From Raphanus sativus (taxonomy: Eukaryota > Streptophyta > Magnoliopsida > Brassicales > Brassicaceae): a stretch of 64,000 nt of DNA. Below, in pieces: positions 470 through 54,367 of the stretch. The notes below the pieces were generated by a model. That model saw nothing but the letters and a program-made list of their open reading frames with translations, did not search any database and was not told the origin of the DNA. The position numbers were made by a program, and so were the translations under genes. The stretch spans positions 16,740,001 to 16,804,000 of the forward strand of contig NC_079517.1 of the NCBI RefSeq assembly GCF_000801105.2, given 5' to 3'. The stretch's first letter is position 1. The number at the start of each line of letters is the position of its first letter.

Positions 470-1026
470 AAACTTAAAGAAGAAGGAAAAGGAAGAGAGA
501 AGAAAAAGCAAGAGAAAAAGATTGAGAAAAAAGAAAAAGGAAACATGTGATTGGTGATTTGGTATATTATTACCTTTTTTTTGCTTTAAAAATAAAGTAA
601 ATCGAAATTAAAAGTAGAAGGGGGACCCTCTGAACCCTTCTTCCTCCTCGTTAAGTTTTAACTATGCTCGAGTGACTTTACTTTGAGCTAGCTTCTTTCT
701 TCTAAATGAATGCCAAGAAACTTTGAGCTAGTGACTTTACTTTGAACTGGGCGATCCACCGGCTACCATCAGCAGCAGCAACAACCTCACCGATTTCTCC
801 CCGGCGGTTAGGGTAGGGGAGCCGGCGCCGGAGCTGTGACCGACTCTTCCACTTACGTTGATCCTTCCTTATCCTCTAAACGCAGGTATTCAATCAATTC
901 CATGACTTCTCAGTTTCTTTAGGATTAGTTTTTGTCCTGATGGCATCAGACTCGGGTGAATCTACCAACTGTGAGCCATTCAGTTCCTAACCAGCACAAT
1001 GGTCCCAATGGTGTCGGCGTATACTC
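470..1026. other. Upstream region of the chimeric gene with a GC-rich patch
   Basis: No complete gene is visible. Bases 480-545 are purine-rich (GA runs). A GC-rich patch at about 755-840 stands out from the AT-rich background and is followed by CGCAGGTATTC near 883, which looks like an exon end with a 5' splice site. It could be a 5' untranslated exon, or a short coding exon, of the gene starting at 1328. That would require splicing across the LTR remnant; this is inference. Confidence 0.3.
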
Positions 1027-1327: not shown

Positions 1328-2650
1328 ATGATGCACAGAGCCGAGAGAAAATACCAAGTAGGTGCAGTTACAGATGAAGAAGAAGCGAAACGAAGGCAAT
1401 TAAAGGGCATCTTGGAAAAGTTGACCCCGCAAAACTTTGAGAAAGTTTTGGAGCAATTTAAAAGTGTCAACATCGACAACGCCGTTACTCTTACTGGTGT
1501 AGTTTCACAGATATTTGACCAAGCTTCGAAGGAGCCTACCTTGGGTGAGATGTATGGAGATTTATGTTACCATCTGTCTGGGACGTTACCCGATTTCAAT
1601 GAGGATGGTGAAAAGATTACTTTCAGAAGATTGCTTCTCAATAAATGTCAGATGGAATTTGAGAGAGGAGAGAAAGAAGAGGAGGAAGCCAATAGAGTTC
1701 CTGAAGAAGGACAAACCGAGGAGGAGAGACTCAAGGTTCGGAGGAGAAGGCTCGGTAATATTAGACTTATTGGTGAGTTATACAAGAAAAGGATGTTGAC
1801 TGAGAAAATCATGCACGCATGCATCCAGAAGTTGCTCGGGTATGATCAGGATCCACATGAAGAGAACATAGAAGTTCTGTGTGAACTAATGAGTACGATA
1901 GGAGTTATGATCGATCACGACAAAGCTAAGGTCCATATGGATGCATATTTTGAGAGAATGAAAATGCTATCATGCAAACAAGAATTGTCTTCTACAGTCA
2001 GGTTCATGTTAATTAATGCCATCTATCTGAGAAAGAGCAAATGGCAAGAGAGAATGAAAGTTGAAGGGCCAATTCCGGAAACAGTAGGAAATAAAGATTC
2101 TTGCGTCTTTCTCAAGGAAAGAAATGAAAGCATGGATATCAATGGGTTTCATGTCTTGTCTTCACAAGTAATCATTCTGTATACATATTCTTGTTACTCT
2201 ACATGACACCATCTTCATTTTTTTCTTTTTGTCTTTCACTTGCAGGTAGAATCTGTGAGGCGTCTGTTTGAGAGACATCCAGACATTGCAATAGGTTTCC
2301 GTGCAAAGAACCAGCTTCTGAGGAACTCTTGCATGAATTCCCTTCTCAGCTTAATCGAGACACTGTGTCAACCACTTGAAGATCTCTCCAATGAAGATCT
2401 TGTCGAAGCAGACATCGCACTGACTTATGTGAAAGATTTAGGCTTTAGAGTGGATTGGTTGGACAAGAAGCTAGACCAAGTAAAAGAAAAGAAGAGGAAA
2501 GAGCTGTCTGGTTCTGCCATGCTTCAAGAAACAGAGGAAAGTTTACTGAAGCTGAAGCGAAAGTGTGCAGAGCTTGAGGCTCTAGCTGAGGAGCAGAAGG
2601 CCGAGTTGTCGGCCACCAGAACTCCTCTGTCATTCGACGATGTTGTTTGA
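1328..2650 (+). CDS. Chimeric MIF4G (eIF4G-type) + RTM3-like coiled-coil protein
   Basis: Two exons, 1328-2167 and 2246-2650, joined by a 78-base phase-0 intron (CAA|GTAATC ... TTGCAG|GTAGAA), give 414 residues. Residues about 1-247 are a MIF4G domain close to plant eIF4G: LTPQNFEK, NIDNAVTLTGVVSQIFD, KITFRRLLLNKCQ, GNIRLIGELYKKRMLTEKIM, STIGVMIDHDKAK and KWQERMKVEGP are all family signatures. The domain ends at about base 2070. The next 33 residues, ending INGFHVLSSQ, and all of exon 2 (VESVRRLFERHPDIA ... PLSFDDVV) are the linker and helical tail of the MATH-coiled-coil genes next door, with the same intron position and phase. No MATH domain, eIF4E-binding motif or MA3 domain is present. 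MIF4G domains bind eIF4A; the tail is a predicted coiled coil. ATG 1328 is the first Met; CCTATGCAG just before it could also be a splice acceptor, so the N terminus may be longer. Function is not known. Confidence 0.8.
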
Positions 2651-3804: not shown

Positions 3805-5351
3805 ATGGGTGAGGATCAAATGGAAAGGAAATTCGCTTGGGTTTTGAAAAAGTTCTCTTCTTTGCAAGATGATGAATACTACTCTCGCCCCTTCGCCGTC
3901 GCCGGCTGCAACTGGTAACTATTGTTTACAAACATCTCTCAAGTCGAGTTGTGGAATTTGATTTAAAATGGGCTCTGTTTTTACAGGCGCCTTGTTACTT
4001 ATCCCAAGGGAGAGGGTGATACTGATGGTTACTTGTCAGTGTATCTTGAACTTGTGGATCCTGAGTCTTTGCCATCTGGTTGGACAAGACAAGTTAACTT
4101 TACCCTCACCGTTGTGTCTAAGCGTAGTGGCCAATCAAACAAAGTATTATTAGTGATTTGTTTTTGCTTGGTGCCCTTAGAAATTTGAGCAATTCCTTCC
4201 TGGTTCATTCATTGTTACGCCTTGTTGTATGATACTTTGGGCCTAATGCCCTGTCTTTGATTTTTGAATATCTTTCTTCATTCCTTGTATGCTCTTTTCT
4301 GATTGATGAGACCCCCAAAAAAGAAAATAATAATCTTTATCTTCTGTTTTTGTGGCAGGTGGTGGGCAATGTTGTTTCAATACAGAGGATACGAGTTGGG
4401 GTCATGATAAGTTCATTTCTCTTACCAAGCTTCATTCCGAGGGTAGAGGATTTCTGGTGGAAAACAAACTCACCATCGTCGCTGAACTGCGTGTACTTCC
4501 AGAGGGAAATGTGAGTATTGCTGCCCCTCTTAGTCTCAGCAGCAAAGATGAAACTCAAGCTGATGAAATAGCTGAGGATGCGGATGTAGTAGATGATGGC
4601 GCGTCTGAAGAGGCTACTTCTGACTGGGTTACAGATAACGATGGTTCTTTTGAAGAGGATGTGGAAAATGATGATGTTCCATCTTCTTGTTTAGATGACG
4701 GAGGTGGGGACATGAGTCCTCTCGACCAATCCAATGCCTTTGATGACGCTGAGTCTGAGGTTTTCAATGAATTTGACTTTTCTCCTTCTCAGGTAAGAAC
4801 TGGTCTTCTATTGTTGTTAGAGAGAAAGCTCTAATCTGAAACTGAACGCTACAGCATGTTCTATTTCATATGTCCATATCTCTTATTTCTTTAGAAAACA
4901 AGTCTCTGGTTTATGTTCATTTCACGCTGTTTATGGCTAACAGGTAGAATCAGTGAGACACATATTCAGAAGACACCCGGACATAGCAATAGGATTCCGC
5001 CCAAGGAACAGACAGATCAGAAGAGCTTACATGAATGAACTCCTTAGCCTCATCGACATGCTATGCCAGTCACCAGAGAAGCTTTCCGAGGATGATCTGA
5101 GCGATGCTGATGACACACTTGCTGATCTGATTGATGTCGGTTTTAGATTAGATTGGCTGAAGACAAAGCTGGACGAAGTCGCTGAAAAGAAGAAGAACGA
5201 ACAGAGTAGTGGGGCGCGGTTACGAACAATGGAGGAACAGTTGCGGAAGCTGAAGATGATGTTCTTGGATCTTGAAACTCAGCTTCAGATGGAAAAGAAT
5301 GAGGCTCTGGTGGCAAGGGCTCCTCTCTCCTTCAACGATGTTGTGTCCTGA
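3805..5351 (+). CDS. MATH domain and coiled-coil protein, RTM3-like, acidic linker
   Basis: Exons are 3805-3914, 3987-about 4159, 4359-4792 and 4944-5351. Exon 1 encodes MGEDQMERKFAWVLKKFSSL ... VAGCNW, the start of a MATH (TRAF-like) domain. Exon 2 has YPKGEGDTDGYLSVYLEL and LPSGWTRQVNF. Exon 3 completes MATH (GGQCCFNTEDTSWGHDKF, FLVENKLTIVAEL), then runs into about 90 acidic residues rich in D, E and S. Exon 4 is the conserved tail VESVRHIFRRHPDIA ... PLSFNDVVS. Relatives such as Arabidopsis RTM3 act in phloem against potyvirus movement, but no function can be assigned here. At the exon 2/3 junction the donor used by paralogues (TTAG|GT) is absent; the nearest GT that keeps frame is at 4160 and is weak. 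The gene may be mis-spliced. Its tail is closest to that of the gene at 9489. Confidence 0.8.
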
Positions 5352-6024: not shown

Positions 6025-7337
6025 ATGGATGGGCATATGAAGAAGAAACTCACTTGTGTTTTCAAACACTTGTGTTTGCAACAAGATGACGAGTGCCACT
6101 ACTCTCTTCCCTTCAAGGTCGCCGGCTGCGATTGGTAAATAAAGGAAAACGATTACAGAGATTTTTTTTTGTAAATAAAGGTCCGTTTTCTGTAGTTTGG
6201 ATATTTGTTTTTTCTTGGTGCAGGCGGCTTGTTGCTTTTCGCAAAAGAGATACGGATGGTGGCTACTTGTCCATGTATCTGGATCTCGCCCCTGGAACGC
6301 TCCCACCAGGATGGAGAAGAGACGTGAAGTTTAGCCTCACTCTCGTGACTAAGGGCTTGCCTAGTTTGACCAAAACATTAGGTGACTCTTCTGCATTTAT
6401 GCTCCTTATTAATCATATTATTTTAACTTGTATGTCCTTTTTTTGTGATGATGACAGGAGGGCAAGGCTGTTTCGATGCAGAGAATAACAGCTGTGGCTT
6501 TGAAGAGTTCTTGCCTCTTTCCAAACTTTGGAGATACCTGGATGATTACAGACTCACTATCATCGCTGAACTAGACGTTATCCCAGCTGTTGTGTTACCA
6601 GAGGAACCTGCACACATGATTATTAAACCATCTCTGAGCTGCAACCAAGCTTATGATGATGCATCTGTCAGTAGATCTCAGGTGGAGCAAGTGTCTTGTC
6701 AATTGGAGCAAAAAAATGAGAACCATGATTCAGATGAAAATGGTGGTAAATGGTTTAACACTGTGGCTTCTGTTAAGGAGATTCAACCTGTAAAGGAGAC
6801 AACTAATGTCAACGGGTTTGAGGTTTTGTCTTCTCAGGTAATAATGGAACTTAAGGAGACTTGTGTTATTCCAAATCTCTGAAGCATGCTCTTTCTCATT
6901 AGCTTTGTATATCTTTTTTTTTCACCTCGCAGGTAGAATCTGTGAAGCTTATATTCGAGAGACACCCAGACATCGCTGTGGAGTTTAACGCAAAGAACCA
7001 ACATCTCAAGAACGCATGTATGAACTTCTTGCTAAGCTTAGTGGAGACGTTATGCCAGTCACTTGAGAAGCTCTCCAATGAAGATCTAGTGGAAGCAGAC
7101 ATTGCGTTGACATACTTGAAAGATGCAGGTTATAAGGTGGATTGGCTGGAGAAGAAGCTAGACCAACTAAAAGACAAAAAGGAGGGTGAGCAGTCTTGTT
7201 TGGCTCGGCTCCAAGAAATCGAGGAAAATCTACAGAAACTGAAGCAGAAGTGTTCAGAGCTGGATGTTCTTGCGGAGGAGGAGAAGACAGAGTTGTCAGC
7301 CACAAGAACTGCTCTGTCTTTCGATGATATTGTTTGA
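6025..7337 (+). CDS. MATH domain and coiled-coil protein, RTM3-like
   Basis: Exons 6025-6134, 6224-6381, 6458-6837 and 6933-7337 join to 351 codons (350 residues), all with standard GT-AG sites. Exon 1 is MDGHMKKKLTCVFKHLCLQQ ... VAGCDW; exon 2 has GGYLSMYLDLAPGTLPPGWRR; exon 3 has GGQGCFDAENNSCGFEEFLP and IIAELDVIPAVV, then a linker of about 75 residues with acidic and Gln-rich parts, ending VNGFEVLSSQ. Exon 4 is the tail VESVKLIFERHPDIA ... ALSFDDIV. The tail shares LSNEDLVEADIALTY and ELSATRT with the chimeric gene at 1328, making this its closest relative in the window. No reading-frame damage is seen. The YPKG motif of exon 2 is changed to FRKR. Confidence 0.87.
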
Positions 7338-17848: not shown

Positions 17849-19621
17849 AAGAGGAAGTAAGCTTTTTGGTTCATACCAATTTGGTATAAGAGCCGAACGA
17901 TTCGATGGGAGAAGAAACAAATGTTATGGAGTAACTTGCTATTATGATGGCAAAGATCGAAAACATGAGGAGTGAGTTGAAGAGTGATTTGAGATCCCTA
18001 ACAGAAAGAGTGGATGCTTTGGAATCACAGCCTTCATCTCCTAAAGCTCAAGATATTAAGAAGAAGGGGGTTCTTCAAGATCATTCATCGGCTATCAAAT
18101 TTTCAACAGAAGAGCTATCCGAAGTTGAGAACTTTAGTAGGAGCAAGGGAGGAAAAGCACTGCCGCTACAAGCAGGGGAAGCAGGCACGTCCCTTGGAGG
18201 ATACCAACGACCCGGTAACTTCAGTGGACCATGGCAGGCACGAGCGGTGGGCAGAGAACGAGGAAATCGTCGAGCTGATGGAGGAGGAGACTGGAATGTC
18301 AGACAATCGGAGCAGCACCACTCGACTATCTTCCAAATCCTGGAGATTTTCGAAACTCGGAGGGGTTGCCGGAGAGAAAATATTATGAAGCTCGTGAGGA
18401 CAGAAGCAACAACTTCGAAAGAAGATGTGTGAAGGCAGCCAAAATAGAGTTTCCACCGTTTGATGGGACAACGAATGCTATGGAGTGGTTACAAAAGTGT
18501 GATGACTTCTTTGCGGACCAAAGAATATTCAGTGATGATGCGAAAGTTAGACAAGCAACTTTTGTTTTAACCGGACAAGCGTACCACTGGAACCTCAACT
18601 TGCGACGATTGGTTACACATAGGCTTGGATGGGAGGAGTTTAAAAGAATCTGCAAAAGTCGATTTGGAAAGGCAGATGCAGTAAACCCAGTGGGAGAATT
18701 GTCAAATCTTAGACACACTGGAACAATGGATGAGTACTGCAATCAGTTTGAAGAATGTCTAAGCCGACAAACAAGACTCTCGGGTGATCAACAGTTGTGG
18801 CAGTTCTGTGCCGGTTTGACCGATAACTTGAGAAAAGAAGTGGAGTATCTTAGACCAGAGACAATTTTTGAAGCAATGGAATATGCTCGAGACAATGAAT
18901 ACAAGATTGATGGTGATAAACGAGCTAGAACGTTTGGTGGACATATGGCTCCACTATCTGGACATTTAGTCCAAAACACTGCACCAAAAATGCTAGAGAA
19001 AAAAGAGCATGACAAAGAAGCTCATCAGACCCGAAAGGAAGAAGCTAAACATGCTCTACAAAAACAATATTGGAAGAAACTGACTGTAGCAGAAATGGCA
19101 GAACGTCGAGCAAAAGGACTTTGTTTCAATTGCGATGAACTCTACACTAGAGATCATGTTTGTAACCCTGTCCTTTTTCATATAATGCCTGTCACAGACG
19201 GGGATGATCAAAAGGATGAACCATTCAATGAAGAAGAGTTTGCTGAATATGTGGGAGGAAGAAGAGAAGCTGCTAGAGGCATACCTGGAGCTTGAGGACA
19301 AGCTCCTAGTCGAGGGGGGGAGTAATGATATGACATATGGTTTAGAATAAGAGTTATGGTTTTAATGGTTTATGTTTTACGTTAGATTAAGATTTAGGTG
19401 TTTTCCTTTTAATTAAACTTATAAGTATTTTCCTTTTTTATTTAGGTTATGATATGTCATAACCTATATAATGGTTCTCTATGATGAATAAAGAGGGAAC
19501 TTCCAACAATTAACCTTAATCTCCAAGAGAGCTTAGGGTTAAAGGAAGCTTAGCTATTTATCTTTCTTTTGTTCACGTGTAATCACGGCACCGGTTACGA
19601 GATCACAAACGGCTCGTATCA
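17849..19621 (+). mobile_element. Internally deleted Ty3/gypsy-like LTR element (gag only)
   Basis: Order: about 30 bases of putative 5' LTR end (..GGTTCATACCA), a primer-binding-type site TTTGGTATAAGAGCC at 17876, a gag region, a C-terminal piece of pol, a polypurine tract (GAGGGGGGGAG, about 19312-19322) and a 3' LTR, 19326-19621 (TGATATGACATATGG ... CGGCTCGTATCA). The LTR carries CCTATATAATGG and a perfect hairpin AGGTTATGA/TCATAACCT. Protease, reverse transcriptase and integrase core are absent, so the element cannot move by itself. An older LTR of the family is at 1027-1309. Confidence 0.7.
17944..19295 (+). pseudogene. Retrotransposon gag, frameshifted, fused to pol tail
   Basis: The N-terminal part (from 17944) is a coiled-coil-like gag leader in one frame. 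After frameshift(s) between about 18190 and 18370, the main frame 18366-19295 carries the retrotransposon gag domain: FPPFDGTTNAMEWLQKCDDF, AYHWNLNLRR, GWEEFKRICKSRFG and EYCNQFEECLSR. A zinc-knuckle-like CFNCDELYTRDHVC follows near residue 252. The frame stops at 19293. In the +1 frame, 19270-19315 encode LELEDKLLVEGG, the usual last residues of Ty3/gypsy pol, so almost all of pol has been deleted. Confidence 0.75.
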
Positions 19622-19752
19622 GGACTATGACCTATTACATCATTATCTAACTAGACTTGGGAGTTGAAATAGAGAAAATGAAGTCCTGATGTTGTTACTT
19701 GTTTGAGTTTGTGTCGTTCTTATTATAAAATGGTCGAATATAAAGTCGATCA
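19621..19752 (+). repeat. Right copy of 132-bp perfect direct repeat
   Basis: Same 132 bases as 17717-17848, starting directly after the 3' LTR end GTATC(A). The right flank then continues CAACTTTTTTATTC, whereas the left copy is followed by AAGAGGAAGTAAGC and the element. Confidence 0.9.
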
Positions 19753-30665: not shown

Positions 30666-31253
30666 CTATCTATAAACTCTTTATCTTTTTCAGCCTTTTT
30701 ATTTTCTTCATTTTCATCATAATGATTGGTGTTATAAAATAATTGTTCTATACTATATATTGGACGAATATAGTATAGTATGATATCCAGCGTTGTATTA
30801 ATAATCTTTCACTCGCGGGGAAGGAGAGCGTTGTCTACTTTTGTATCAAATTGACACAACTTTTCATGTATGGCTATATTCTTCATATATGGTGCTACTA
30901 TGAATATTAAGCAAATTGACCCTACTTTCTATGGAGACTAAAAATGTCCATTTTATTAGTATAGATTTAAAATGTTCATTATTCCACTTTTGCACTAATT
31001 TTAATTATTTTCTTTGACGACAGCACTAATTTTAATTCACAATGTTGTTTTTCTAATTTATATATTTTCGTAACTTGTTATGTGATCCTAAATATCCTTT
31101 TAGAAGCTTGTTTACTTTATACATTGTGTGATTGGAATTTTTAATTAACATGCATATGATTATTTTTTAATTATATATGTGATTTTCGTAAAAACAAAAC
31201 AATGAACCATACTTTACTTATTTTTAATTTATAATATACATATACTATAATCT

Positions 31254-31276
31254 ATGGAATCGAGAATGCTTCGTTA

Positions 31277-31310
<34 letters not shown>

Positions 31311-31323
31311 AATCGAGAATGCT
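31254..31323 (+). mobile_element. Tiny retroposon: 7 bases plus A29, 17-bp target duplication
   Basis: ATGGAATCGAGAATGCT occurs at 31254-31270 and 31307-31323. Between them is only TCGTTAC followed by about 29 A. Copy B of the duplication (near 47135-47155) lacks it, giving the empty site. It is a nearly complete 5' truncation of a LINE-type insert. Confidence 0.75.
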
Positions 31324-31637
31324 CATACTCCAAGTAACACTGGGAGGGTAATGAAAGCGATTCCCATTCCTGTTGTATACGTAATCTTGACGATTAGCAT
31401 TCAGAGAGTGGCTTTGGAACTCAAAAGTCTTTAATTTCCATATACGCACATGCTCCAAAGTTTGTTTGACGAGTTAATTTTTAAATGTTATAAGAAATCA
31501 TTAATTGGTTATATATGGATACTGGAGAGTCGTGCAACTCCTATTGGTTACAAGGCCCGAGATTGCCGTATCTGAGTCCAAAAAAATTGTGTTAAGTCAC
31601 TCAGGTTCTAGGTTTGTCTGTATCTCCACCGAGATCA

Positions 31638-32831
31638 ATGGAGAAGAAAGTTGATAAGAAGTTCACTTGGGTGATAAAGGATTTCTCTTCTTTGAAATCT
31701 GAGAAAATATTTTCAGATAAATTTGTCGTCAGTGGCTGCAAATGGTACAAGGTTTTCAAGTGTTTTCATTAATTTCCTTCACAAATTTGCTTAATTTGTT
31801 TTTCCTGCAGGTACATTAGTGCATATCCCAAAGGATACAAGGTTGATAACTTTCTGTCAGTGTATCTGGAAGTCCCCGATTGTGGATCATTGCCATCTGG
31901 ATGGAGAAGACACGCACGATATCGCCTCATTGTTGTAAATCAACGTTCTGAGAAACTCTCCCGGCAACTTGGTAATATTTCCTCGTACTGGTCGGTCTAA
32001 AAGAGTTATTAATTTCGTTATATTTCTTAATGTTGAACATTGTTGTTCAGTCCACATAAGCATATATATTCATTGTAATTCTATATTAGATGAATAATTG
32101 TTTGTGGTTTTACAGAAGTACAACACTGGTTTGATGTGACGTCTAACAACTGGGGCTTTCCATCCATGCTTTCCCTTGATGAAATTAATGCCAAAGATAG
32201 CGGGTTTCTGGTAAAAGGGGAGCTCAAGATTGCTATCGAGATAGATCTTCTTGAAATTATTGGCAAAGTAGAGGTTAATGGGTTTCATCTTCTTTCTTCA
32301 CAGGTAATAATTTAAGGATGTTGTAAATTTGTGTGTAGAAATTTCAGCAACAAGTGAAAACATGATTAACTTAACTTGTCTAACAAGATGCTTTTTTTTT
32401 TGTATATCTGTTTTCCTTCTCAGGTGGAAAACGTAAGCCGTATGTTTGAAAAACACCCAAAGACTGCTTCTGAAGTCCATCTAAAGAACCCTAATATTAG
32501 GACAGGTTACATGAATTTGCTACTTTGCCTGATTGATACTTTGCGCCAGTCGCCTCAAGAGCTCCCCAACGATGATCTGGACGAGGCTCATTATGCACTG
32601 GAATCATTGACTGATGCTGGATTTAATTTGGATTGGTTGGAGAAGAAAATCTCTCAAGTTTCAGAAATGAAGGAGAAAGCGAAAGATGGTGAAATTCGTA
32701 GGCAAGAGATTGAGATAGAGTTGAAAGATTTGAACCAGAAGTGCTCAGACGTGGAGGCTCAACTGGGGAAGGAGAAGTCAATGGCGCTGGCTGCAAAAAC
32801 TCCATTCTCATTTGATGATATTATTGAATAA
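31638..32831 (+). CDS. MATH domain and coiled-coil protein, short linker, full tail
   Basis: Exons 31638-31744, 31811-31971, 32116-32303 and 32424-32831 give 287 residues. Exon 1 is [20 protein letters not shown] ... VSGCKW; exon 2 has [17 protein letters not shown] and [16 protein letters not shown]; exon 3 has [16 protein letters not shown] and [20 protein letters not shown]; the linker is about a dozen residues ([10 protein letters not shown]). Exon 4 has [22 protein letters not shown]-type helix ([19 protein letters not shown]) and ends FSFDDIIE. All splice sites are canonical. Its duplicate at 47469 is broken by a MITE. Confidence 0.88.
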
Positions 32832-33545
32832 TCTGAAGCCATTAGACACTCGAAGTTATGTTCTTATTTGATGTTAGGCGAAGCTCTGCTTCTTAGCATA
32901 TGCTCCGTTGTACTTGTATCACTGAAAAAGTCTTTTGTTTAATCTTTCTATGTGCTTACTTGCGAATCAAGTAACAAATATGCTTCAGTTTGTATTATTA
33001 TTTATTTTGAAAATGCCTCTTTTTCGGATATCCTCTATGTGCCCAATCTTTGAATATGGTGAAGGATTGAGTGTGAACCTTATAAAGAAATTCTAAGACG
33101 TCTGTTCTCTTGTAACGATGGAGTCCCTTGGTTTCAATTAACAGAACGTTTTAAGATAGGTTACTTGGTTCGAAAGTAATTGCTTTTGTGTCTGAACAGA
33201 ATGTGGTTTTGCTTTTAGAGTTCACAGACTTGGTTTTGTTTTTTATTTCATAGGTTTTCATATCACATTTTTGAAAGAAAGTATTACGATTATATGAATC
33301 TTTGTTAAATAAAAGCCAATCTCTCTTGCTACGAACATGGACTGCATTTGAAGAGTCGCAATCAATAGAGAGGATCGAGAAGTCTTTTATCATTTATTAA
33401 TTCGTTGTTATGACAAAATAGGTCAAGACTGTTCGCGTTCCTGCTCGTTTCTTTGAGATGCCTTTAAAAACTTGTTTAGTGTGGCCATTAATCCAGTTTC
33501 ATCCATATTAGAATTTCAGAACTTTAAGTATCCTTTCTCACTCCA
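32832..33545. other. Intergenic stretch between two MATH genes
   Basis: No gene is seen. The sequence is colinear with 49661-50370 in copy B. Confidence 0.5.
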
Positions 33546-34680
33546 ATGGCAAAGCAAGTTGGTCACAAGTTCGCCTGGGTAATCAAAGACTTTTCCTCTT
33601 TGCATGAGAAGTTTTATTCTCCTACAGTCCAGATTGGTGATTGCAAATGGTAAAAAAATATACTTCTTACTGCTCTATGGTTTGGCTCAGTGAAATCGTT
33701 TCTTCTCATGTTCTTCAGGCGTCTATCTGTCTATCCCAAGGGAATACTTGTTAGTGACCACTTATCTCTGTTTCTGGAATTTGCTGATGTTAAATCATTG
33801 CCTTTTGGATGGAGAAGATTGGTGAAATTTCGACTAACAGTAGCAAAACAAATTTCGGAAGGACCCTCAGTACTCAAAAGTGATTCTTACTACTAACTCT
33901 ACTGTTTTTTTTTTCTTTCATTTCATTCATCCATGGCAAAGGGAACTTCCGTTTATTTTATGCATTTTTTTAACTCATGGGTCTTGTTTTATTATATGAA
34001 TCATATGATGTCTATATGAGTTGTGATATTGATTAGATGTAGCAGGGCGTTCATGCAGTACTACAATTCAATTTTGATTTATTCTCATGAAATTCTACAG
34101 AAACACATCGCTGGTTTGATCAAAAGCACGTCCGCTGGGGGTTTCCAAATATGATTCCCTTAGCCAAAATCCAGGACAAAAATGAAGGATTCCTTATAAA
34201 TGACGAACTCATGATAGTTGCCGAGGTAGATTTTCTTCAAGTTCTTGGCTCCACAGAGAAATCTGAAGAGACAAATCCTCTGAGCCAGGTATATGTAACA
34301 TAACTGATGTCAGTGGCCAGTGGGGTTTACGTTTTAGTTTCTTCTTAAATGACTTTAGTTTTCAGGTCTTTATCATACCGTACTCCTGTGTGTGTCTCAA
34401 TTAACAGGTAGAATCTGTGAGCTCGATCCAAGACAGTGTAGTAGAATTTCGTGCAAGGAACCAACATCTGAAGACTGCATGCACAAATGTATTGCTCAGT
34501 CTTACTCAGACTCTGTGCCAAACACCTCAGGAGCTTTCCCTGGATGATCTGGTCGAAGCAGAGAAAGTACTGGCTTACATGAAAGATACTGGCTTGGAGG
34601 TGGAGTGGTTGGTGAAGAAGCTTAATGAAGTGAAGGAAAAGAAGCAAGAGCAGTCTGGTCAAGTAAAGGGGAAAAAGTAA
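33546..34680 (+). CDS. MATH domain protein, short-tail class
   Basis: Exons 33546-33649, 33719-33879, 34101-34288 and 34408-34680 give 241 residues. Exon 1 is [19 protein letters not shown] ... IGDCKW; exon 2 has [17 protein letters not shown] and GWRRLVKFRLTVAKQ; exon 3 has [16 protein letters not shown] and LMIVAEVDFLQVLG, linker [12 protein letters not shown]. Exon 4 is [19 protein letters not shown] ... EVKEKKQEQSGQVKGKK, a clipped tail without the SFDDV end. The HPD/HPE motif that follows F-E-R/K in long tails is replaced by IQDS here and in its two siblings. Confidence 0.87.
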
Positions 34681-35659
34681 CAGGCTGAGTTACTTGAGCA
34701 AGTTTTAACTCATAATCTGAAAAACATACTTCATATGAATTGGTTTAAAGCTTGTTTGATTCGGTTTAATATGCTTGAATTCAGTTTGGTTTAGTTTAAG
34801 TTGATTCATCTCCATTCAGTTTTTAAGAATATAATTAAGTTGCAGCAATATTGGTTTTGAAAGACAACCATGATGTAGAAACTGGAATAGATTCTGTTGT
34901 GCTCGGTGTCAAGGTTTGTTTGTCATTTGATTATCTTATGTCCTGACTTCCAAGGTATTCATCAAAGAGTTTCTTACTTGATGTTCTGGTATGCTCGTTC
35001 TTTACATATAGATGAATTACAGCGGAAGTTTCCATAAACTCTTTTCTTGAAACTTCTTAAGTCATGACTCATGAATAGGAAGATTCACGTCAAAACATGT
35101 GGCTTGACGCCCACGCTATAAAATCCAATCGATGAGTTAGCATTAATCTTCTACTCTTTACTTATTAATCTGTGTTAGATAAGTTCTGCAAAAATAGAGC
35201 TTTCTACCTAACCCTACAATATTTCTCTTCTTACTAAATTTAGAAATCTTAATTATCCAACTCTTTGACACTAATTCTTACAATATTTTCTCTAATATTT
35301 TATGTTTTGGTATGTGACCGTATATAAATAACTTTGCATTTGTATACGTAAACTAGTTTATGGAATCCAGAATGCACATGCTCGAAGTAACCCTAAGAGG
35401 AAATGAAAGCTATTCTCATTCGTGCATATGGTGTACGTAATATTAACGATTACAATTCAATGGGTTAGGGTGGCTTTCAAACTCATAAAGTTATATTTAC
35501 ATTGGAGAATATCTGTAGTTTGCGTAAATCATTGATGACGAGTTTAGGAATATTGGAATCTTAATATCAATATCGCTTATATATTTGACTATCTAAGTCA
35601 AAAGAATTGTGTTGATAGCCGCTCAGGTTCTAGGGTTTTCCGTTTCTTCATCGAGATCA
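34681..35659. other. Intergenic stretch between two MATH genes
   Basis: No gene is seen. The sequence is colinear with 51506-52465. Confidence 0.5.
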
Positions 35660-37203
35660 ATGGAGAAGAAGTTTGATAAGAAGTTCACTTGGGTAATCAA
35701 AGATTTCTCTTCTTTGAAATCGGTGAATATATTGTCAGATATTTTCGTCGTCCGTGGCTGCAAATGGTAGAAGTTTTTTCTAGTGTTTTCATCCATATAT
35801 CCACAGTTTTGCTTAATTCGTTTTTTTCTTGCAGGCAACTTAATGCATATCCTAAAGGAAACAAGGGTCATAACTTTTTGTCCTTGTTTCTGGAAGTCGC
35901 CGGTTATGAATCCCTGCCATCTGGATGGAGAAGACACGTACGATTTCGACTCATTGTTGTAAATCAACGTTCGGAGACACTCTCCCGGCAAAATGGTAAA
36001 AGTTTTCCATTACTTGGTCCTTTTGAAGTAGTTCCCGCCTCCAAATTATTTTCAATGGCAATATCATAAACAAAATATAATGAGTTGATCACGATAACAA
36101 ACCCATATAACATGTTAATGTTTCATCCACCCACATGAAACATTCGTCTTGGTTCTCAAATTTAGTATGTGTTTTATGGTGCCAAAAATTAGGAAAATTT
36201 TATCATGAATTTACCTTAAAAATTACTATGACCCCATAAATGTCAGGGAAGGCCCTGCTTTCATCACATCTTCCAACGATTGGAACCTTCTAATATAGAA
36301 TTCCAGTAAAAAGAAAGTCTATTGTTTTCTCACCAAAAAAAAAAAGAAAAAAACAACAAAAAGTCCCTTGTTTTACTATAATTCTATTTTGCACAATGTT
36401 ATAACTTATAAGCATTTTCATGTAGTTCTTGATTATATGAACGGTTTGTGTTTTTACAGAAGGACAAAACTGGTTTGAAGAGAAGCCTAACGGCTGGGGT
36501 TTTGCATCCATGCTTTCTCTTGATGAAATTAATGCCAAAGATAGTGGGTTCCTGGTGAATGGGGAGCTCAAGATTGTTGCCGAGATAGAACTTCTTGAAG
36601 TTATTGGCAAAGTAGATGTTAATGGGTTTCACCTTCTTTCTTCACAGGTAGGAATTTAAGAAAATTAAAAAAAAAAAATTGTGTAGAAATTTCACCAACG
36701 AGTGAAAACCTAATGTTTTAAACTTGTATAACAAGGTGCTTTTGTGGTGTCTCGGGAATATAAATTCTACTTTATATCTACGTTTTCACTTTCAGGTGGA
36801 ATCTGTGAGCCGTATGTTTGAAAAGCATCCAGAAACTGCTTCTGAAGTCCATCTAAAGAACCCAAATCTTAGGACAGGTTACATGAGTTTGCTACTCAGT
36901 CTGATAGATACTCTGTGCCAGTCGCCTCACAAGCTCCCCAAGGATGATCTGGATGAGGCGTATTATGCACTGGAATCCTTGACTGATGCTGGTTTTAAGT
37001 TGGATTGGTTGGAGAAAAAAATTTCTCATGTGTTAGAAAGGAAGGAGAAAGAAAAAGACGGTGAGATTCGTAAGAAAGCAATTGAAAGAGAGTTGAAAGA
37101 TTTGAAGGAAAAGTGCTCAGATCTTGAAGCTCAGCTGGAGAAGGAGAAGTCAGAAGCGTTGGCTGCTAAAACCACTATCTTATTTGATGATGTTATCCAA
37201 TAA
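35660..37203 (+). CDS. MATH domain and coiled-coil protein, short linker, full tail
   Basis: Exons 35660-35766, 35835-35995, 36460-36647 and 36796-37203 give 287 residues. Exon 1 is [20 protein letters not shown] ... VRGCKW; exon 2 has [17 protein letters not shown] and [16 protein letters not shown]; exon 3 has [16 protein letters not shown] and [20 protein letters not shown], linker [10 protein letters not shown]. Exon 4 starts [15 protein letters not shown] and ends ILFDDVIQ. Intron 2 is long (464 bases). The duplicate at 52466 has lost the end of its tail. Confidence 0.88.
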
Positions 37204-46844: not shown

Positions 46845-47971
46845 TAGATTTAAAATGTTAGTTATTCCACTTTCGCACTAATTTTAATTATTTTCTTTGA
46901 CGACAGCACTAATTTTAATTCACAATATTTTTTTCCTAATTTATCTATTTTCGTAACTTGTTATGTGATCCTAAATAACATTTTAGAAGCTTGTTTACTT
47001 TATACATTGTGTGATTGGAATTTTTAATTAACATGCACATATGATTATTTTTTAATTATATATGTGATTTTCGTAAAAACAAAACAATGAACCATACTTT
47101 ACTTATTTTTAATTTATAATATACATATACTAATCTATATAATCCAGAATGCTCATACTCCAAGTAACACTGGGAGGGTAATGAAAGCGATTCCCATTCC
47201 TGTTGTATACGTAATCTTGACGATTAGCATTCAGAGAGTGGCTTTGGAACTCAAAAGTCTTTAATTTCCATATACGCACATGCTCCAAAGTTTGTTTGAC
47301 AAGTTAATTTTTAAATTTATAAAAAAAATCATTAATTGGTTATATATGGATACTGGAGAGTCGTGCAACTCCTATTGGTTACAAGGCCCGAGATTGCCGT
47401 ATCTGAGTCCAAAAATATTGTGTTAAGTCACTCAGGTTCTAGGTTTGTTTGTATCTGCACCGAGATCAATGGAGAAGAAAGTTGATAAGAAGTTCACTTG
47501 GGTGATAAAGGATTTCTCTTCTTTGCAATATGATAAAATATTTTCAGATAAATTTGTCGTCAGTGGCTGCAAATGGTATAAGTTTTTCAAGTGTTTTCAT
47601 TAATACCCTTCACAAATTTGCTTAATTTGTTTTTCCTACAGGTACATTAGTGCTTATCCCAAAGGATACAAGGTTGATAACTTTCTGTCAGTGTATCTGG
47701 AAGTCCCCGATTGTGGATCATTGCCATCTGGATGGAGAAGACACGCACGATATCGCCTCATTGTTGTAAATCAACGTTCTGAGAAACTCTCCCGGCAACT
47801 TGGTAATATATCCTCGTTCTGGTCGGTCTAAAAGAGTTATTAATTTCGTTATATTTCTTAAGGTCGAACATTGTTCTTCAATCCACATAAGCATATTTCA
47901 TTGTAACTCTATATTAGATGAATAATTATTTGTGGTTTTACAGAAGTACAACACTGGTTTGATGTTACGTC

Positions 47972-48719
47972 TAAGATCATCTCCAACCCTACTCAATTTT
48001 CTACTCCAAACATCATTTTGGAGTAAAATTCTCTCCAACCCCACTCTATTTTCAACTCCAAAATGGAGTAATGACTAGGGTTACTCTATTTATGGAGTAA
48101 TCTTACATATTACTCTATTTTGGAGTTGAACTTTTTTTATTTATAAAATGATCCTTTAAATCTTTAATGTTCTTATTTCTTACTTAAATAATATTTTAAA
48201 ATGAAAAAATAACATGAAAATAAGATATTTTATTATTTAATAATTTGACATAAAATGCATAACATAATTAAACAACATAAATAATATAAAATAAAAATAA
48301 CATAAAATAAGTGATTTAAATGCCCGGCTTTAAAATTTGCTTGCTCGATTTAGGAATATCAAAAATAAAGAAGCTCATTTTTTAATTACGAAATGCATTA
48401 GTTGATCATTTGTGGGAAGAATATTCTAATACTTATTATTGAACCAACTTATATATTATATTTTATTCTATTTTTATGATCTTTTGTACCTTTTACTAAT
48501 AAATATTTAATTTAAATAAATTATATTTTAAGGCAGTTTTGCAAACATAAAATAGTTGGGGTTAATTGGTAAACTTTTATAAGTATAAGATATTACTAAC
48601 AATTATTAACTATTTTTAAAGTAAAAAATGGAGTAATACATTGGAGTAAAACCTTACTCTATTTTGGAGTTGCATCATTTTGGAGTAAAATTTGGAGTAA
48701 TACATTGGAGATGTTCTAA
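47972..48719. mobile_element. Tourist/PIF-Harbinger-like MITE in exon 3
   Basis: TAA target duplication (47972-47974 and 48717-48719). Ends GATCATCTCCAACCC and ACATTGGAGATGTTC are inverted repeats. The empty site is TCTAACAAC at 32136-32144 in copy A. The interior has sub-terminal repeats of ACTCTATTTTGGAGT and no gene. Confidence 0.9.
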
Positions 48720-48877
48720 CAACTGGGGCTTTCCATCCATGCTTTCCCTTGATGAAATTAATGCCAAAGATAGCGGGTTTCTGGTAAAAGGGGAGCTCAA
48801 GATTGCTATCAAGATAGATCTTCTTGAAATTATTGGCAAAGTAGAGGTTAATGGGTTTCATCTTTTTTCTTCACAGG

Positions 48878-49137
48878 TAAGGGCATCTCCAACTCCACTC
48901 TATTTTTCACTCTAAAATAGAGTTTAGAGTAAAAAATGTTCCAATGGTACTCTATTTCTTACTCTATAATAGAGTGAAAAATAGGTTTATTCCAAATATA
49001 GAGTAAGTTGTTTTTTCTTTGTTCATCACTCTATTTTCTACTCTAAAATAGAGCACAATTGGAGTAAATTCCATCTCTATTATAGAGTCACTCTATTTTA
49101 AAGTAAAAAATAGAGTGAACCCTTGGAAATGCTCTAA
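48878..49137. mobile_element. Tourist/PIF-Harbinger-like MITE in intron 3
   Basis: TAA target duplication (48878-48880, 49135-49137). Ends GGGCATCTCCAACTCC and ..CCCTTGGAAATGCTC are inverted repeats. Length 254 bases, rich in ACTCTATTTT. The empty site CAGGTAATAATTT is at 32301 in copy A. It begins four bases after the exon 3 end, so it directly alters donor context (CAG|GTAAGGGC). Confidence 0.9.
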
Positions 49138-49660
49138 TAATTTAAGGATGTTGTAAATTTGTGTGCAGAAATTTCAGCAACGAGTGAAAACATGATGAAC
49201 TTAACTTGTCTAACAAGATGCTTTTTTTTTGTATATCTGTTTTCCTTCTCAGGTGGAAAACGTAAGCCGTATGTTTGAAAAACACCCAAAGACTGCTTCT
49301 GAAGTCCATCTAAAGAACCCTAATATTAGGACAGGTTACATGAATTTGCTACTTTGCCTGATTGATACTTTGCGCCAGTCGCCTCAAGAGCTCCCCAAGG
49401 ATGATCTGGACGAGGCTCATTATGCACTGGAATCATTGACCGATGCTGGGTTTAATTTGGATTGGTTGGAGAAGAAAATCTCTCAAGTTTCAGAAATGAA
49501 GGAGAAAGCGAAAGATGGTGAGATTCGTAGGCAAGAGATTGAGATAGAGTTGAAAGATTTGAAGCAGAAGTGCTCAGACGTGGATGCTCAACTGGGGAAG
49601 GAGAAGTCAAAGGCGCTGGCTGCAAAAACTCCTATCTCATTTGATGATATTATTGAATAA

Positions 49661-50370
49661 TCTGCAGCCATTAGACACTTGTAGTTATGTTCTTATTTGA
49701 TGTTAGGCGAAGCTCTGCTTCTTAGCATATGCTCCGTTGTACTTGTATCACTGAAAAAGTCTTTTGTTTAATCTTTCTATGTGCTTACTTGCGAATTAAG
49801 TAACAAATATGCTTCAGTTTGTATTATTATTTATTTCGAAAATGCCTCTTTTTCGGATATCCTCTATGTGCCCAATCTTTGAATATGGTGAAGGATTGAG
49901 TGAACCTTATAAATAAATTCTAAGACGTCTGTTCTCTTGTAAGGATGGTGTCCCTTGGTTTCAATTAACAGAATGTTTTAAGCTAGGTTACTTGGTTCGA
50001 AAGTAATTGCTTTTAGAGTTCACACTTCACAGACTTGGTTTTGCTTTTAGAGTTCACAGACTTGGTTTTGCTTTTCTATTTCATAGATTTTCATATCACA
50101 TTTTTGAAAGAAAGTATTACAATTATGATCTTCGTTAAATAAAAGCGAATCTCTCTTGCTACGAACATATACCGCATTTGAAGAGTCGCAATCAATAAAG
50201 AGGATCGAGAAGTCTTTTATCATTTATTAATTCGTAGTTATGACAAAATAGGTCAAGACTGTTCGCGTTCCTGCTCGTTTATTTGAGATGCCTTTAAAAA
50301 CTTGTTTTAGTGTTGGTTAATCCAGTTTCATCCATAATAGAACTTCAAAACTTTATCCTTTCTCACTCCA
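49661..50370. other. Intergenic stretch, copy B
   Basis: Colinear with 32832-33545. A 34-base piece (TTTGCTTTTAGAGTTCACAG) is duplicated at 50010-50060. No gene. Confidence 0.5.
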
Positions 50371-51505
50371 ATGGCAGAGCAAGTTGGTCACAAGTTCGCC
50401 TGGGTAATCAAAGAATTTTCCTCTTTGCGTGAGAAGTTTTATTCTCCTACAGTCCAGATTGGTGATTGCAAATGGTAAAAAAAAAAATATACTTCTTACT
50501 GCTCTATGGTTTGGCTTAGTGAAACCGTTTCTTCTCATGTTCTTCAGGCGTCTATCTGTCTATCCCAAGGGAATACCTGTTAGTGACCACTTATCTCTGT
50601 TTCTGGAATTTGCTGATGTTAAATCATTGCCTTTTGGATGGAGAAGATTGATAAAATTTCGGTTAACAATAGCAAAACAAGTTTCGGAAGGACCCTCAGT
50701 ACTCAAAAGTGATTATTACTTAACTCTACTGATTTTTTTTTTTAAATTCCGTTTCATTCATCCATGGCAAAGTAAACTTTGTGTATTTTATGCATTTTTT
50801 TACTCATGGGCCTTGTTATGCTGCAAATTACTATTTTATGATATGAATCATATGATGTCTTTATGAGTTGTGATATTGATTAGATGTAACAGGGCGTTCA
50901 TGCAGTACTATAATTCAATTTTGATTTATTGTCATGAAATTCTACAGAATCACATCGCTGGTTTGATCAAAAGAAACCCCTGTGGGGGTTTCCAACTATG
51001 ATTCCTTTAGCCAAAATCCATGACAAAAATGAAGGGTTCCTTGTAAACGACGAACTCATTATAGTTGCCGAGGTAGATGTTCTTCAGGTTGTTGGCTCCT
51101 CGGAGAAACCTGAAGAGACAAATCCTCCGAGCCAGGTATATGTAACATAACTGATGTCAGTGGGGTTTACGTTTTAGTTTCTTCTTAAATGACTTTAGTT
51201 TTCAGGTCTTTATCATACCATACTCCTGTGTGTGTCTCAATTAGCAGGTAGAATCTGTGAGCTCGATCCAAGACAGTGTAGTAGAATTTCGTGCAAGGAA
51301 CCAATATCTGAAGACTGCATGCACGAATGTCTTGCTCAGTTTTACTCAGACTTTGTGCCAAACACCTCAGGAGCTTTCCCTTGATGATATGGTCGAAGCA
51401 GAGAAAGTACTGGCTTACATGAAAGATACTGGCTTGGAGGTGGAGTGGTTGGTGAAGAAGCTTAATGAAGTGAAGGAAAAGAAGAAGAGCAGTCTGGTTA
51501 AGTAA
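50371..51505 (+). CDS. MATH domain protein, short-tail class (duplicate of 33546)
   Basis: Exons 50371-50474, 50548-50708, 50948-51135 and 51248-51505 give 236 residues. Exon 1 is MAEQVGHKFAWVIKEFSSL ... IGDCKW; exon 2 has [17 protein letters not shown]; exon 3 has HRWFDQKKPLWGFPTM and LIIVAEVDVLQVVG. Exon 4 is [19 protein letters not shown] and ends EVKEKKKSSLVK, five residues earlier than its twin because of a small indel near 51485. Otherwise it appears intact. Confidence 0.85.
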
Positions 51506-52465
51506 AGGGGGAAAAAATAACAGACTGAGTTACTTGTGAAAGTTACAACTCATAATCTAAAAAACAAATTTCATATGAATTGGTTTAAAGCTTGTTTGAT
51601 TCGGTTTAATATGCTTGAACTCAGTTTGGTTTGGTTTAAGTTGATTCATCTCCCTTCAGTTTTGAAGAATATAATTAAGTTGCAGCAATATTGGTTTTGA
51701 AAGACAACCATGATGTAGAAACTGGCATAATTCTGTTGTGCTCGGTTTCAAGGTTTGCTCTGTTGTTTGATTCATCAAAGAGTTTCTTACTTGATGTTCT
51801 GGTATGCTCATTCTTTACATATAGATGAACTACAGCGGAAGTTTCCACAACCTCTACTTTTCTTGAAACTTCTTAGGACATGAATAGGAAGATTCACGTC
51901 CAAATATGTGGCTTGACGTCCACGCTACAAAATCCAATCGATGAGTTAGCATTAATCTTCTACTCTTTACTTATTAATCTGTATTAGATACGTTCTGTAA
52001 ATACAGAGCTTTCTACCTAACACTACAATATTTCTCTTCTTACTAAATTTCGAAATCTTAATTATCCAACTCTTTGACACTAATTCTTACAATATTTTTC
52101 CCTAATTTATTTTATGTTTTGGTATGTGACCGTATATAAATAACTTTGCATTTGTATACGTAAACTAGTTTATGGAATCCAGAATGCACATGCTCGAAGT
52201 AACCCTAAGAGGAAATGAAAGCTATTCTCATTCGTGCATATGGTGTACGTAACGATTACAATTCAATGGGTTAGGGTGGCTTTCAAACTCATAAAGTTAT
52301 ATTTACATTGGAGAATATCTGTAGTTTGCGTAAATCATTGATGACGAGTTTAGGAATATTGGAATCTTAATATCAATATCGCTTATATATTTGACTATCT
52401 AAGTCAAAAAAATTGTGTTGATAGCCGCTCAGGTTCTAGGGTTTTCCGTTTCTTCATCGAGATCA
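51506..52465. other. Intergenic stretch, copy B
   Basis: Colinear with 34681-35659, with a few small indels. No gene. Confidence 0.5.
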
Positions 52466-53892
52466 ATGGAGAAGAAGTTTGATAAGAAGTTCACTTGGAT
52501 GATCAAAGATTTCTCTTCTTTGAAATCGGTGAATATATTGTCAGATATTTTCGTCGTCCGTGGCTGCAAATGGTAAAAGTTTTTTTTGTGTTTTCATACA
52601 TATATCCACAGTTTTGCTTAAATCTTCGTTTTTTTTCTTGCAGGCAACTTAATGCATATCCTAAAGGAAACAAGGGTCATAACTTTTTGTCTTTGTTTCT
52701 GGAAGTCGCCGGTTATGAATCCTTGCCATCTGGATGGAGAAGACACGTACGATTTCGCCTCATTGTTGTAAATCAACGTTCGGAGACCCTCTCCCGGCAA
52801 AATGGTAAAAGTTTTCCATTCCTTGGTCCTTTTGAAGTAGTTCCCGTCTCCAAATTATTTTCAATGGCAATATCATAAACAAAAAATAATGAGTTGATCA
52901 CGGTAACAAACCCATATAACATATTAATGTTTCATCCATCCACATGAAACATTCGTCTTGGTTCTCAATTTTTAAGAGGTAGTATGTGTTCTATGGTGCC
53001 AAAAATAAGGAAAATTTTATCGTGAATTTACCTTAAAAATTACTATGACCCCATAAATGTTAGGGAAGGCCCTGCTTTCATCACATCTTACAACAATTGG
53101 AACCTTCTAACATAGAATTCCAGTAAAAAGAAAGTCTCTTGTTTTCTCAGAAAACAAAAAAAAACAAGAAAAACAACAAAATAGGTCCCTTGTTTTACTA
53201 TAATTCTATTTTGTACAAGGTTATAAATTATAAGCAATTTCATGTAGTTCTTGATTATATGAACGGTTTGTGTTTTTACAGAAGGACAAAACTGGTTTGA
53301 AGAGAAGGCTAACGGCTGGGGTTTTGCATCCATGCTTTCTCTTGATGAAATTAATGCCAAAGATAGTGGGTTCCTGGTGAATGGGGAGCTCAAGATTGTT
53401 GCCGAGATAGAACTTCTTGAAGTTATTGGCAAAGTAGATGTTAATGGGTTTCACCTTCTTTCTTCACAGGTAGGAATTTAAGAACTTTTTAAAAAAAAAT
53501 TTGTGTAGAAATTTCACCAACGAGTGAAAACCTAATATTTTAACTTGTATAACAAGGTGCTTTTGTGGTGTCTCGGGAATATAGATTCTACTTTGTATCT
53601 ACGTTTTCACTTTCAGGTGGAATCTGTGAGCCGTATGTTTGAAAAGCATCCAGAAACTGCTACTGAAGTCCATCTAAAGAACCCAAATCTTAGGACAGGT
53701 TACATGAGTTTGCTACTCAGTCTGATAGATACTCTGTGCCAGTCGCCTCACAAGCTCCCCAAGGATGATCTGGATGAGGCGTATTATGCACTAGAATCCT
53801 TGACTGATGCTGGTTTTAAGTTGGATTGGTTGGAGAAAAAAATTTCTCATGTGTTAGAAAGGAAGGAGAAAGAGAAAGACGGTGAGATGTAA
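52466..53892 (+). pseudogene. MATH coiled-coil gene truncated by retroelement (duplicate of 35660)
   Basis: Exons 52466-52572, 52644-52804, 53282-53469 and 53617-53892. All is as in the twin at 35660 until GACGGTGAGAT (53888), where the copia LTR starts and gives GAGATG-TAA. The protein would be 243 residues, keeping MATH and the first part of the tail but losing the last 45 or so residues including the FDDV end. It could still be expressed, with LTR sequence as 3' end. Confidence 0.85.
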
Positions 53893-54367
53893 GCTCAAGA
53901 AAAGAGCTGTGATCGTGAAGAAGAGAGGAAGACTGTGTCACACATGTGATCGATGTGTGACACAATGGAAAGAGTCGGTTATGGAAACTATGACGTGGCA
54001 TAACGTGGTTATCAAGTAAAGAAGATATGGAAGATTAGATTGCATCGAGATATTAGGAAATATAGTATATTCGATGAGGGCTACTTAACTAGATTATCTA
54101 GGGCAGATCTAGGTTAAGTACGCTAATTGGAAAAAGCTTGAGCAAGGGTTTGTCTTGTCAAGTAAAGAGGTGATCGAGTTCAGGGTGTTGAAGCTCGATC
54201 TACTGAGTTTAAGAGATTAGAAATTGGTCCGTCTCTAGTCGTGTGTGACTGAGAGTAATTCGGATTAAACAGATCTAGGAGATTGTTTAAGTGATTTCTA
54301 ATATACAAGAAAGAGTGTTCTTGGATTCTCTGTGTGCTCCTTATATTCGTTTGTCCCTGAACTTTCA
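53890..54367 (+). mobile_element. 5' LTR of the Ty1/copia element
   Basis: Begins TGTAAGCTCAAG at the break in the MATH gene and ends ..CTGAACTTTCA directly before the primer-binding site. It holds a perfect inverted repeat with 12-base arms (TGTGTCACACAT, 7-base loop, ATGTGTGACACA) at 53935-53965. No second copy is found downstream. Confidence 0.7.

Follow-up and report, generated by a model that had tools for sequence, protein, structure and literature searches.

The window analysed here is a 64,000-nucleotide stretch of radish (Raphanus sativus) contig C7, part of the 433-Mb genome that was searched. Near its start lies W, a gene that joins the MIF4G region of eIF4G, a protein-synthesis factor, to the tail of a MATH/coiled-coil protein, a family that includes a virus-movement blocker. 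W belongs to a set of four eIF4G-derived copies, named B, C, A and W, found in the window and in about 50 kb before it, all on the plus strand and each with a MATH gene standing ahead of it. The features are given below in window coordinates, except where C7 is named.

744-890 and about 939-1010, plus strand: remnant of the first exons of eIF4G in W, startless, its eIF4G frame closed by TAG
1026-1290, no strand assigned: repeat-like stretch, 73.9% identical in reverse orientation to window 19355-19622
1328-2167, plus strand: coding exon 1 of W, 280 codons, eIF4G-derived MIF4G region followed by the linker
1394-2041, plus strand: MIF4G domain (PF02854) of W, helical fold predicted
2072-2122, plus strand: junction zone of W; eIF4G likeness stops at 2072 and MATH-linker likeness begins by 2122
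2168-2245, plus strand: intron of W, GT-AG, phase 0, sitting where the MATH family has its intron
2246-2650, plus strand: last exon of W, MATH/coiled-coil family tail, 134 codons and stop, long helix predicted
3806-5351, plus strand: ordinary MATH gene of the array, of the type that precedes each of the four copies
6025-7337, plus strand: ordinary MATH gene with tail D, of all non-fusion tails in the genome the nearest to that of W
C7 16689670-16692020, plus strand: copy B; 5' exons and MIF4G with a central deletion between them, ending in PIPDTVG plus a stop codon, the tail having been lost
C7 16702936-16704891, plus strand: copy C; central eIF4G sequence, in-frame KKYSLDFLLKF, MIF4G deleted in frame, tail retained
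C7 16717621-16722571, plus strand: copy A; duplicated MIF4G start, MIF4G, tail

The gene model of W comprises two exons (1328-2167 and 2246-2650) that encode 414 amino acids (280 + 134 codons), with an ATG at 1328, a further ATG at 1331 and a first exon ending ...TCA CAA at 2167; an annotated R. sativus protein of 414 amino acids, P0001 ('eukaryotic translation initiation factor 4G-like'), is 100% identical to the spliced product. In a Pfam profile search, PF02854 scored 154 bits on W (cut-off 30.8), and identity to the radish eIF4G gene on contig C4 was 83.7% at the DNA level over 786 alignment columns ending at 2072, in line with the switch near base 2071 proposed by an earlier, sequence-only reading of this DNA. 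That reading had described a MIF4G domain running on into the neighbouring MATH family's linker and, past the phase-0 intron, its exon 4, and the frame, intron and junction are as it described: W is a real fusion of an eIF4G MIF4G domain with a MATH/coiled-coil tail. Sister fusions aside, the nearest genome match to the last exon is the MATH gene at 6025-7337 (73% protein and 74.8% DNA identity), and the tail has 95 genome matches in all, W and two sister fusions included, with the nearest other at 73%. Pfam matches of the two W exons (E up to 1) included neither a MATH nor an MA3 domain, and PEARLI-4 fell below its cut-off on the tail (17.3 versus 29.9 bits). Plant eIF4G carries a C-terminal MA3, and PF02847 accompanies PF02854 in many homologues from a search with P0004, a predicted fusion protein of Brassica napus. 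The eIF4E-binding motif upstream of MIF4G is also absent from the W protein, which begins inside the MIF4G exon. Upstream, the remnant of the first eIF4G exons reads GRSTGYHQQQQQPHRFLPGG*G; its identity is 71.9% with radish eIF4G over 744-890 and 87.5% with copy B over 939-1010. As it has no start and contains a TAG, the W protein would begin at the ATGs at 1328/1331 within the exon.

The sequence-only reading had reported a single fusion; the fusion stands, but not its being alone, since W belongs to the set of four. All four copies have in common the junction bases GTTGAAGG(G/A)C(C/T)AATTCCGGA, a pattern matched perfectly (0 mismatches) nowhere but at these four C7 copies; when up to 3 mismatches are allowed, it has 102 genome matches, against 124 for a reversed control pattern, so only the mismatch-free matches are informative. 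Because the junction bases are identical in all four, copies B, C, A and W probably descend from one founder fusion. W and A are a tandem duplication with a spacing of about 22.4 kb: the stretches ahead of the fusion are 89.6% to 99.6% identical and the intron is identical. Identity between their MIF4G regions is patchy, ranging from 79 to 100% per 60 columns, and this suggests that the copies have exchanged sequence by conversion. An eIFiso4G source for the odd MIF4G tract of copy A was considered and is unsupported: over 300 bp the tract is 82.7% identical to eIF4G, and other MIF4G loci match it in stretches of 42 bp at most. In copy C, KKYSLDFLLKF is in frame with the tail exon and is presumably, by the motif consensus, the eIF4E-binding stretch; no ATG lies ahead of it in this frame, so that this part may be untranslated, and the central eIF4G sequence upstream is scattered over several frames. 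A retrocopy origin is disfavoured because unmatched DNA, as in the eIF4G gene itself, intervenes between the eIF4G matches of copy B, and because the 525-amino-acid model of copy B (P0014) covers more DNA than its codons require.

Several further rearrangements were observed at these loci. Copy A holds about 1.5 kb of additional DNA near the 3' end of the stretch matching W 1026-1290 (C7 16718942-16720448, starting TTAGGGGGATGTATTGAA and ending ...TTCAAATACTTA, absent from W), an insert whose sequence resembles a terminal-inverted-repeat element. Just past the point of MATH tail loss, 3' of copy B (C7 16692195), lies a CTAG-plus-hairpin, which we take to resemble a Helitron 3' end. The MATH array contains a second large duplication (window 30962-37074 versus 46845-53893; spacing 15.9-16.8 kb, identity 91.6-93.6%). 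Intact eIF4G occurs twice on C4 (L001 at 51552307 and L002 at 51678004), in opposite orientation about 126 kb apart and with 98.5% identity over 3.67 kb, a pair that is either a recent duplication or an unmerged haplotype.

Beyond this one assembly, predicted proteins in two Brassica species carry the fusion, as the sequence-only reading would lead one to expect. Among the best 120 of 202 homologues of W (out of 7996 scored candidates with the most words in common), those covering the whole of W were P0001 and P0002 from radish, P0003 from B. carinata (85% identical to W) and P0004 from B. napus (77%; 15 member sequences), and full-length fusions are thus predicted in three species. P0002 is probably a merged gene model, combining copy B-like first exons with the last exons of copy A, about 30 kb apart. 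A search with P0004 added two B. napus models, P0201 and P0202, both without the linker; in P0201 the fusion stands between an upstream and a downstream MATH tail, an order that matches the surroundings of the radish copies. P0002 and P0201 seem to join neighbouring genes, and database names in the array are therefore unreliable. A MATH gene like that at 6025-7337 seems to lie after the fusion in the merged P0201, and the locus numbers of P0003 (Bca4012_039303) and P0130 (Bca4012_039305) suggest this order for B. carinata too. Two proteins end much like radish copy B, P0015 (B. cretica) just past the junction residues IPDRVG and P0023 (Hirschfeldia) just past IPDTAGYKT, and an Eruca model, P0206, has an eIF4G part merged with a different MATH tail, without the junction residues. 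For copy C, the best 120 of 166 matches included no full-length relative (top query coverage 69%).

In a tree of MIF4G sequences, the eight eIF4G-derived rows (tail-bearing W, A, P0003 and P0004; junction-ending B, P0015 and P0023; and merged P0206) form one group (support 86/78). In a tree of tails, the six fusion rows fall in one clade (99/97) that also contains P0081, a B. oleracea MATH protein. The linker and tail of P0081 are nearly identical to those of P0004, and it may be a tail donor or a conversion partner or converted copy. W, A and P0003 group together in both trees (MIF4G 82/88, tail 81/69), as do the remaining rows (83/90 and 98/90). This suggests, with moderate support, two lineages of the fusion that go back beyond the divergence of Raphanus and Brassica; should the supports hold, both the fusion event and its first duplication precede that divergence. 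The MIF4G of copy A and P0023 have in common the derived residues PEKIMHHCI and IDHGKAKVLMD.HFEKM, which suggests that an old second type of MIF4G has moved among the copies through conversion.

We put at about even chances a history in which one fusion founded a Brassiceae chimeric family that was then copied in tandem and subjected to conversion, with its frame retained by selection. The 5' part of an eIF4G gene, through MIF4G, would have been joined at the DNA level to the 3' end of a MATH/coiled-coil gene within the cluster of MATH genes, this gene contributing the linker, the phase-0 intron and the last exon; the fusion would then have been copied in tandem along with a MATH gene, and the copies reshuffled through conversion between them. 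W would yield a 414-amino-acid protein whose tail self-associates or joins the MATH/coiled-coil proteins of the cluster and whose MIF4G head, still folded, perhaps binds eIF4A, with selection holding the frame and, seemingly, the tail, and the head loosely constrained. A serious alternative, to which we give appreciable weight short of an even chance, is that the copies arose as a side effect of turnover in the cluster: fragments of eIF4G trapped in a MATH array, then amplified along with it and now decaying without function, with youth, luck and the screening of databases accounting for the open frames.

Substitution rates agree with decay. Pooled over the radish fusion branches, dN/dS was 0.90 for MIF4G (244 codons; 0.12 on the eIF4G branch) and 0.94 for the tail (134 codons; 0.14 on the MATH branch), neither distinguishable from 1 (P = 0.64 and 0.86); the sequence-only reading had counted a dN/dS near 1 as refuting its proposal, and these values go against it. 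The MIF4G codon alignment kept 244 codons after gapped columns were dropped (W 246, A 250, B 249 and eIF4G 253), omitting the duplicated partial MIF4G start of copy A and the stub of copy C. The log-likelihood drops by 1.75 at an omega of 0.6 and by 1.85 at 1.4, free-ratio MIF4G omegas were 1.11 (A), 0.64 (B) and 0.71 (W), the A-W stem sat at the upper bound because synonymous changes are wanting, and at conserved MIF4G columns omega was 0.74, not significantly below 1 (P = 0.58). Decay would also fit the startless, stop-containing eIF4G exon 1 of W, the different truncations of copies B and C (the one having lost its tail and the other its MIF4G, which also counts against a retained function), the splitting of the central eIF4G part of C among frames upstream, and the 38 of 242 MIF4G sites at which radish W and B. 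carinata P0003 differ.

Against functionless decay stands, first, the retention of the frame. In a neutral simulation on the fitted branches, with a copy's own sequence as the ancestor, A, B, W and the C tail were all stop-free in 2 of 4000 runs (0.0005; single-copy chances 0.034 for A, 0.17 for B, 0.065 for W and 0.50 for the C tail), a signal inflated because W was chosen for being open. Among W, A, B and eIF4G, each of the six gaps in the MIF4G coding alignment has a length divisible by three (9, 12, 6, 6, 3 and 3 bases), and the tail coding alignment is free of gaps; of the non-coding gaps, 4 of 12 are divisible by three (1, 2, 15, 6, 16, 30, 3 and 1 bases in the W-A flanks; 4, 1, 1 and 1 in the W-C intron); W and A also differ by 5 bases in length upstream of the start codon. 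The earlier argument from an open frame to selection thus holds for frame retention, which exceeds the neutral simulation, but not for dN/dS, which is about 0.9 in both halves. Second, MIF4G replacements since the ancestor of the copies were milder than random (P = 0.013 for A, <0.0001 for B and 0.014 for W), as were tail replacements in C (P < 0.0001); in the tails of W and A, with 4 and 5 changes, the effect fell short of significance (P = 0.15 and 0.31, respectively). Columns with 95% conservation or more received 12 of 82 MIF4G replacements (32% expected, P = 2.5 × 10−4), a test weakened because synonymous changes also tend to be fewer there (5 of 24, 36% expected). Third, the tail of W differs from that of P0003 at 8 of 134 sites, significantly fewer in proportion than the 38 of 242 in MIF4G (Fisher P = 0.005), and is as conserved as that of one working neighbour, an ordinary MATH gene with differences at 12 of its 134 tail sites between radish and B. 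carinata. Differences between the halves were non-significant for W versus P0004, of the other lineage (MIF4G 48 of 243, tail 19 of 134; P = 0.21), and for P0003 versus P0004 (P = 0.16). Last, two lineages have apparently been retained in two genera, the Brassica members being predicted proteins, which are pre-screened for open frames. The evidence for selection is therefore mixed, but replacement mildness, avoidance of conserved columns and tail conservation between species argue against pure drift, and our reading of the whole is that selection maintains the frame and that the sequence itself is loosely constrained, the MIF4G head more so than the tail; a retained, loosely constrained chimeric family is most likely.

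What such a retained protein might do was considered from its predicted structure. An AlphaFold2 model of W from a 31-sequence alignment (mean pLDDT 80.3) shows a helical MIF4G domain modelled with mostly good confidence (residues ~16-245), then a linker of low confidence (245-266) and, in the helical tail, one long helix (350-404); with a pTM of 0.56, the relative placement of head and tail is untrustworthy. The best solved matches to the head fold are the MIF4G domains of eIF4G and DAP5, including eIF4A complexes and initiation complexes, and of the 81 columns with 95% conservation or more in a background of 145 eIF4G-like proteins, W keeps 76; the head would still fold and may bind eIF4A. 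A mixed oligomer of the W tail with the MATH proteins of the array is plausible by analogy, since the tail family includes RTM3, which self-interacts and binds RTM1 and whose MATH and coiled-coil parts are required for resistance (PMC3377653). RTM3's class is named MATH-PEARLI-4 in PMC12238093. That MATH proteins may come close to initiation factors has a loose precedent in a wheat MATH-BTB protein that co-purifies with eIF4A1 and eIF3 subunits in Arabidopsis (PMC6883508).

An attractive, unproven and, in our judgement, unlikely extension is that W is an antiviral bait or dominant negative, its MIF4G head mimicking a factor needed by potyviruses and its tail tethering it to RTM-type complexes; that the virus would in consequence be trapped, or starved of eIF4A/eIF4F, we consider similarly doubtful. 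Duplication and conversion in the cluster, as at resistance loci, are in keeping with a possible decoy, as is paralogue C, in which the presumed eIF4E-binding stretch from eIF4G reads in frame into the same tail. Published work also offers precedents: the membership of the tail in the family of self-associating, RTM1-binding RTM3 (PMC3377653), the virus resistance conferred by eIF4G/eIFiso4G alleles (rymv1, tsv1 and cum2; PMC4517107), a truncated helicase, AtRH8, that acts as a dominant negative (PMC4517107) and the truncated eIFiso4G1 of infected eif4e1 plants (PMC10721207). A viral role for W would thus have precedent only, and several observations weigh against it: positive selection was not found (MIF4G omega 0.90, none above 1), the MATH domain that is important in RTM3 is missing from W, W is without the eIF4E-binding stretch, the corresponding motif in copy C is perhaps untranslated for want of a preceding ATG, and by name the tail is not closest to RTM3. 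Its relatives named among the matches listed were At3g58410, At3g58440, At3g58340, At3g58210, At3g58220 and At2g05420, and its nearest named relatives are At3g58410/At3g58440-like rather than RTM3 (At3g58350), which was not among the names listed, in a comparison by name only in which most Arabidopsis matches carry no locus name. A more elaborate version, which we rate as improbable, would split the bait, with MIF4G (W and A) and the eIF4E-binding stretch (C) on one MATH/coiled-coil tail forming in a mixed oligomer a counterfeit eIF4F platform; that it would trap potyviral VPg or withhold eIF4A is an equally long shot. An assembly or gene-model artefact uniting two genes, suggested by the merged look of other array models (P0002 and P0201), is rejected as scarcely credible, the junction lying within one continuous exon at four radish DNA sites, three of them continuing into the tail, and recurring in predicted proteins of two Brassica species.

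Among the papers listed by literature searches, none described a fusion of MIF4G with a MATH-family tail; 'MIF4G' and 'MATH domain' co-occur in one paper, a soybean drought study, the main text of a B. rapa MATH survey (PMC3664471) is without 'MIF4G', and the papers listed on virus resistance in radish and Brassica yielded no locus for comparison. This is a real chimeric gene family of several species, which seems not to have been described so far. If the protein is made, it is an apparently undescribed domain combination, retained across radish and Brassica crops as 'eIF4G-like', a name that says little, and one that connects two systems touched by potyviruses, eIF4F and the RTM/MATH cluster. 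The fusion is also a clear case of new architecture arising through fusion, tandem copying and conversion in a resistance-type cluster.

Among known systems, TRIM5-cyclophilin A has a host-factor domain in the position of the scaffold family's binding domain, as MIF4G is placed in W; unlike it, W has no RING/B-box, is no retrocopy as far as copy B indicates, and would have at most a hypothetical restriction activity. NLR integrated decoys likewise graft a target domain onto an immune scaffold in a fast-changing cluster, whereas W has no NLR and the function of its scaffold is only putative. For both of these arms-race decoys an omega above 1 is expected, in contrast to 0.90 for the MIF4G of W. 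Plant eIF4G (radish C4, L015/L016) resembles W in its MIF4G (83.7% DNA identity over 786 columns, with matching predicted fold) and differs in having the eIF4E-binding region and everything after MIF4G, and in its dN/dS (0.12 versus 0.90). The At3g58410/At3g58440-like MATH/coiled-coil family (including RTM3), in a tandem cluster of which W is located, has the same linker, phase-0 intron and C-terminal helical exon, and W departs from it in carrying MIF4G in place of the MATH domain.
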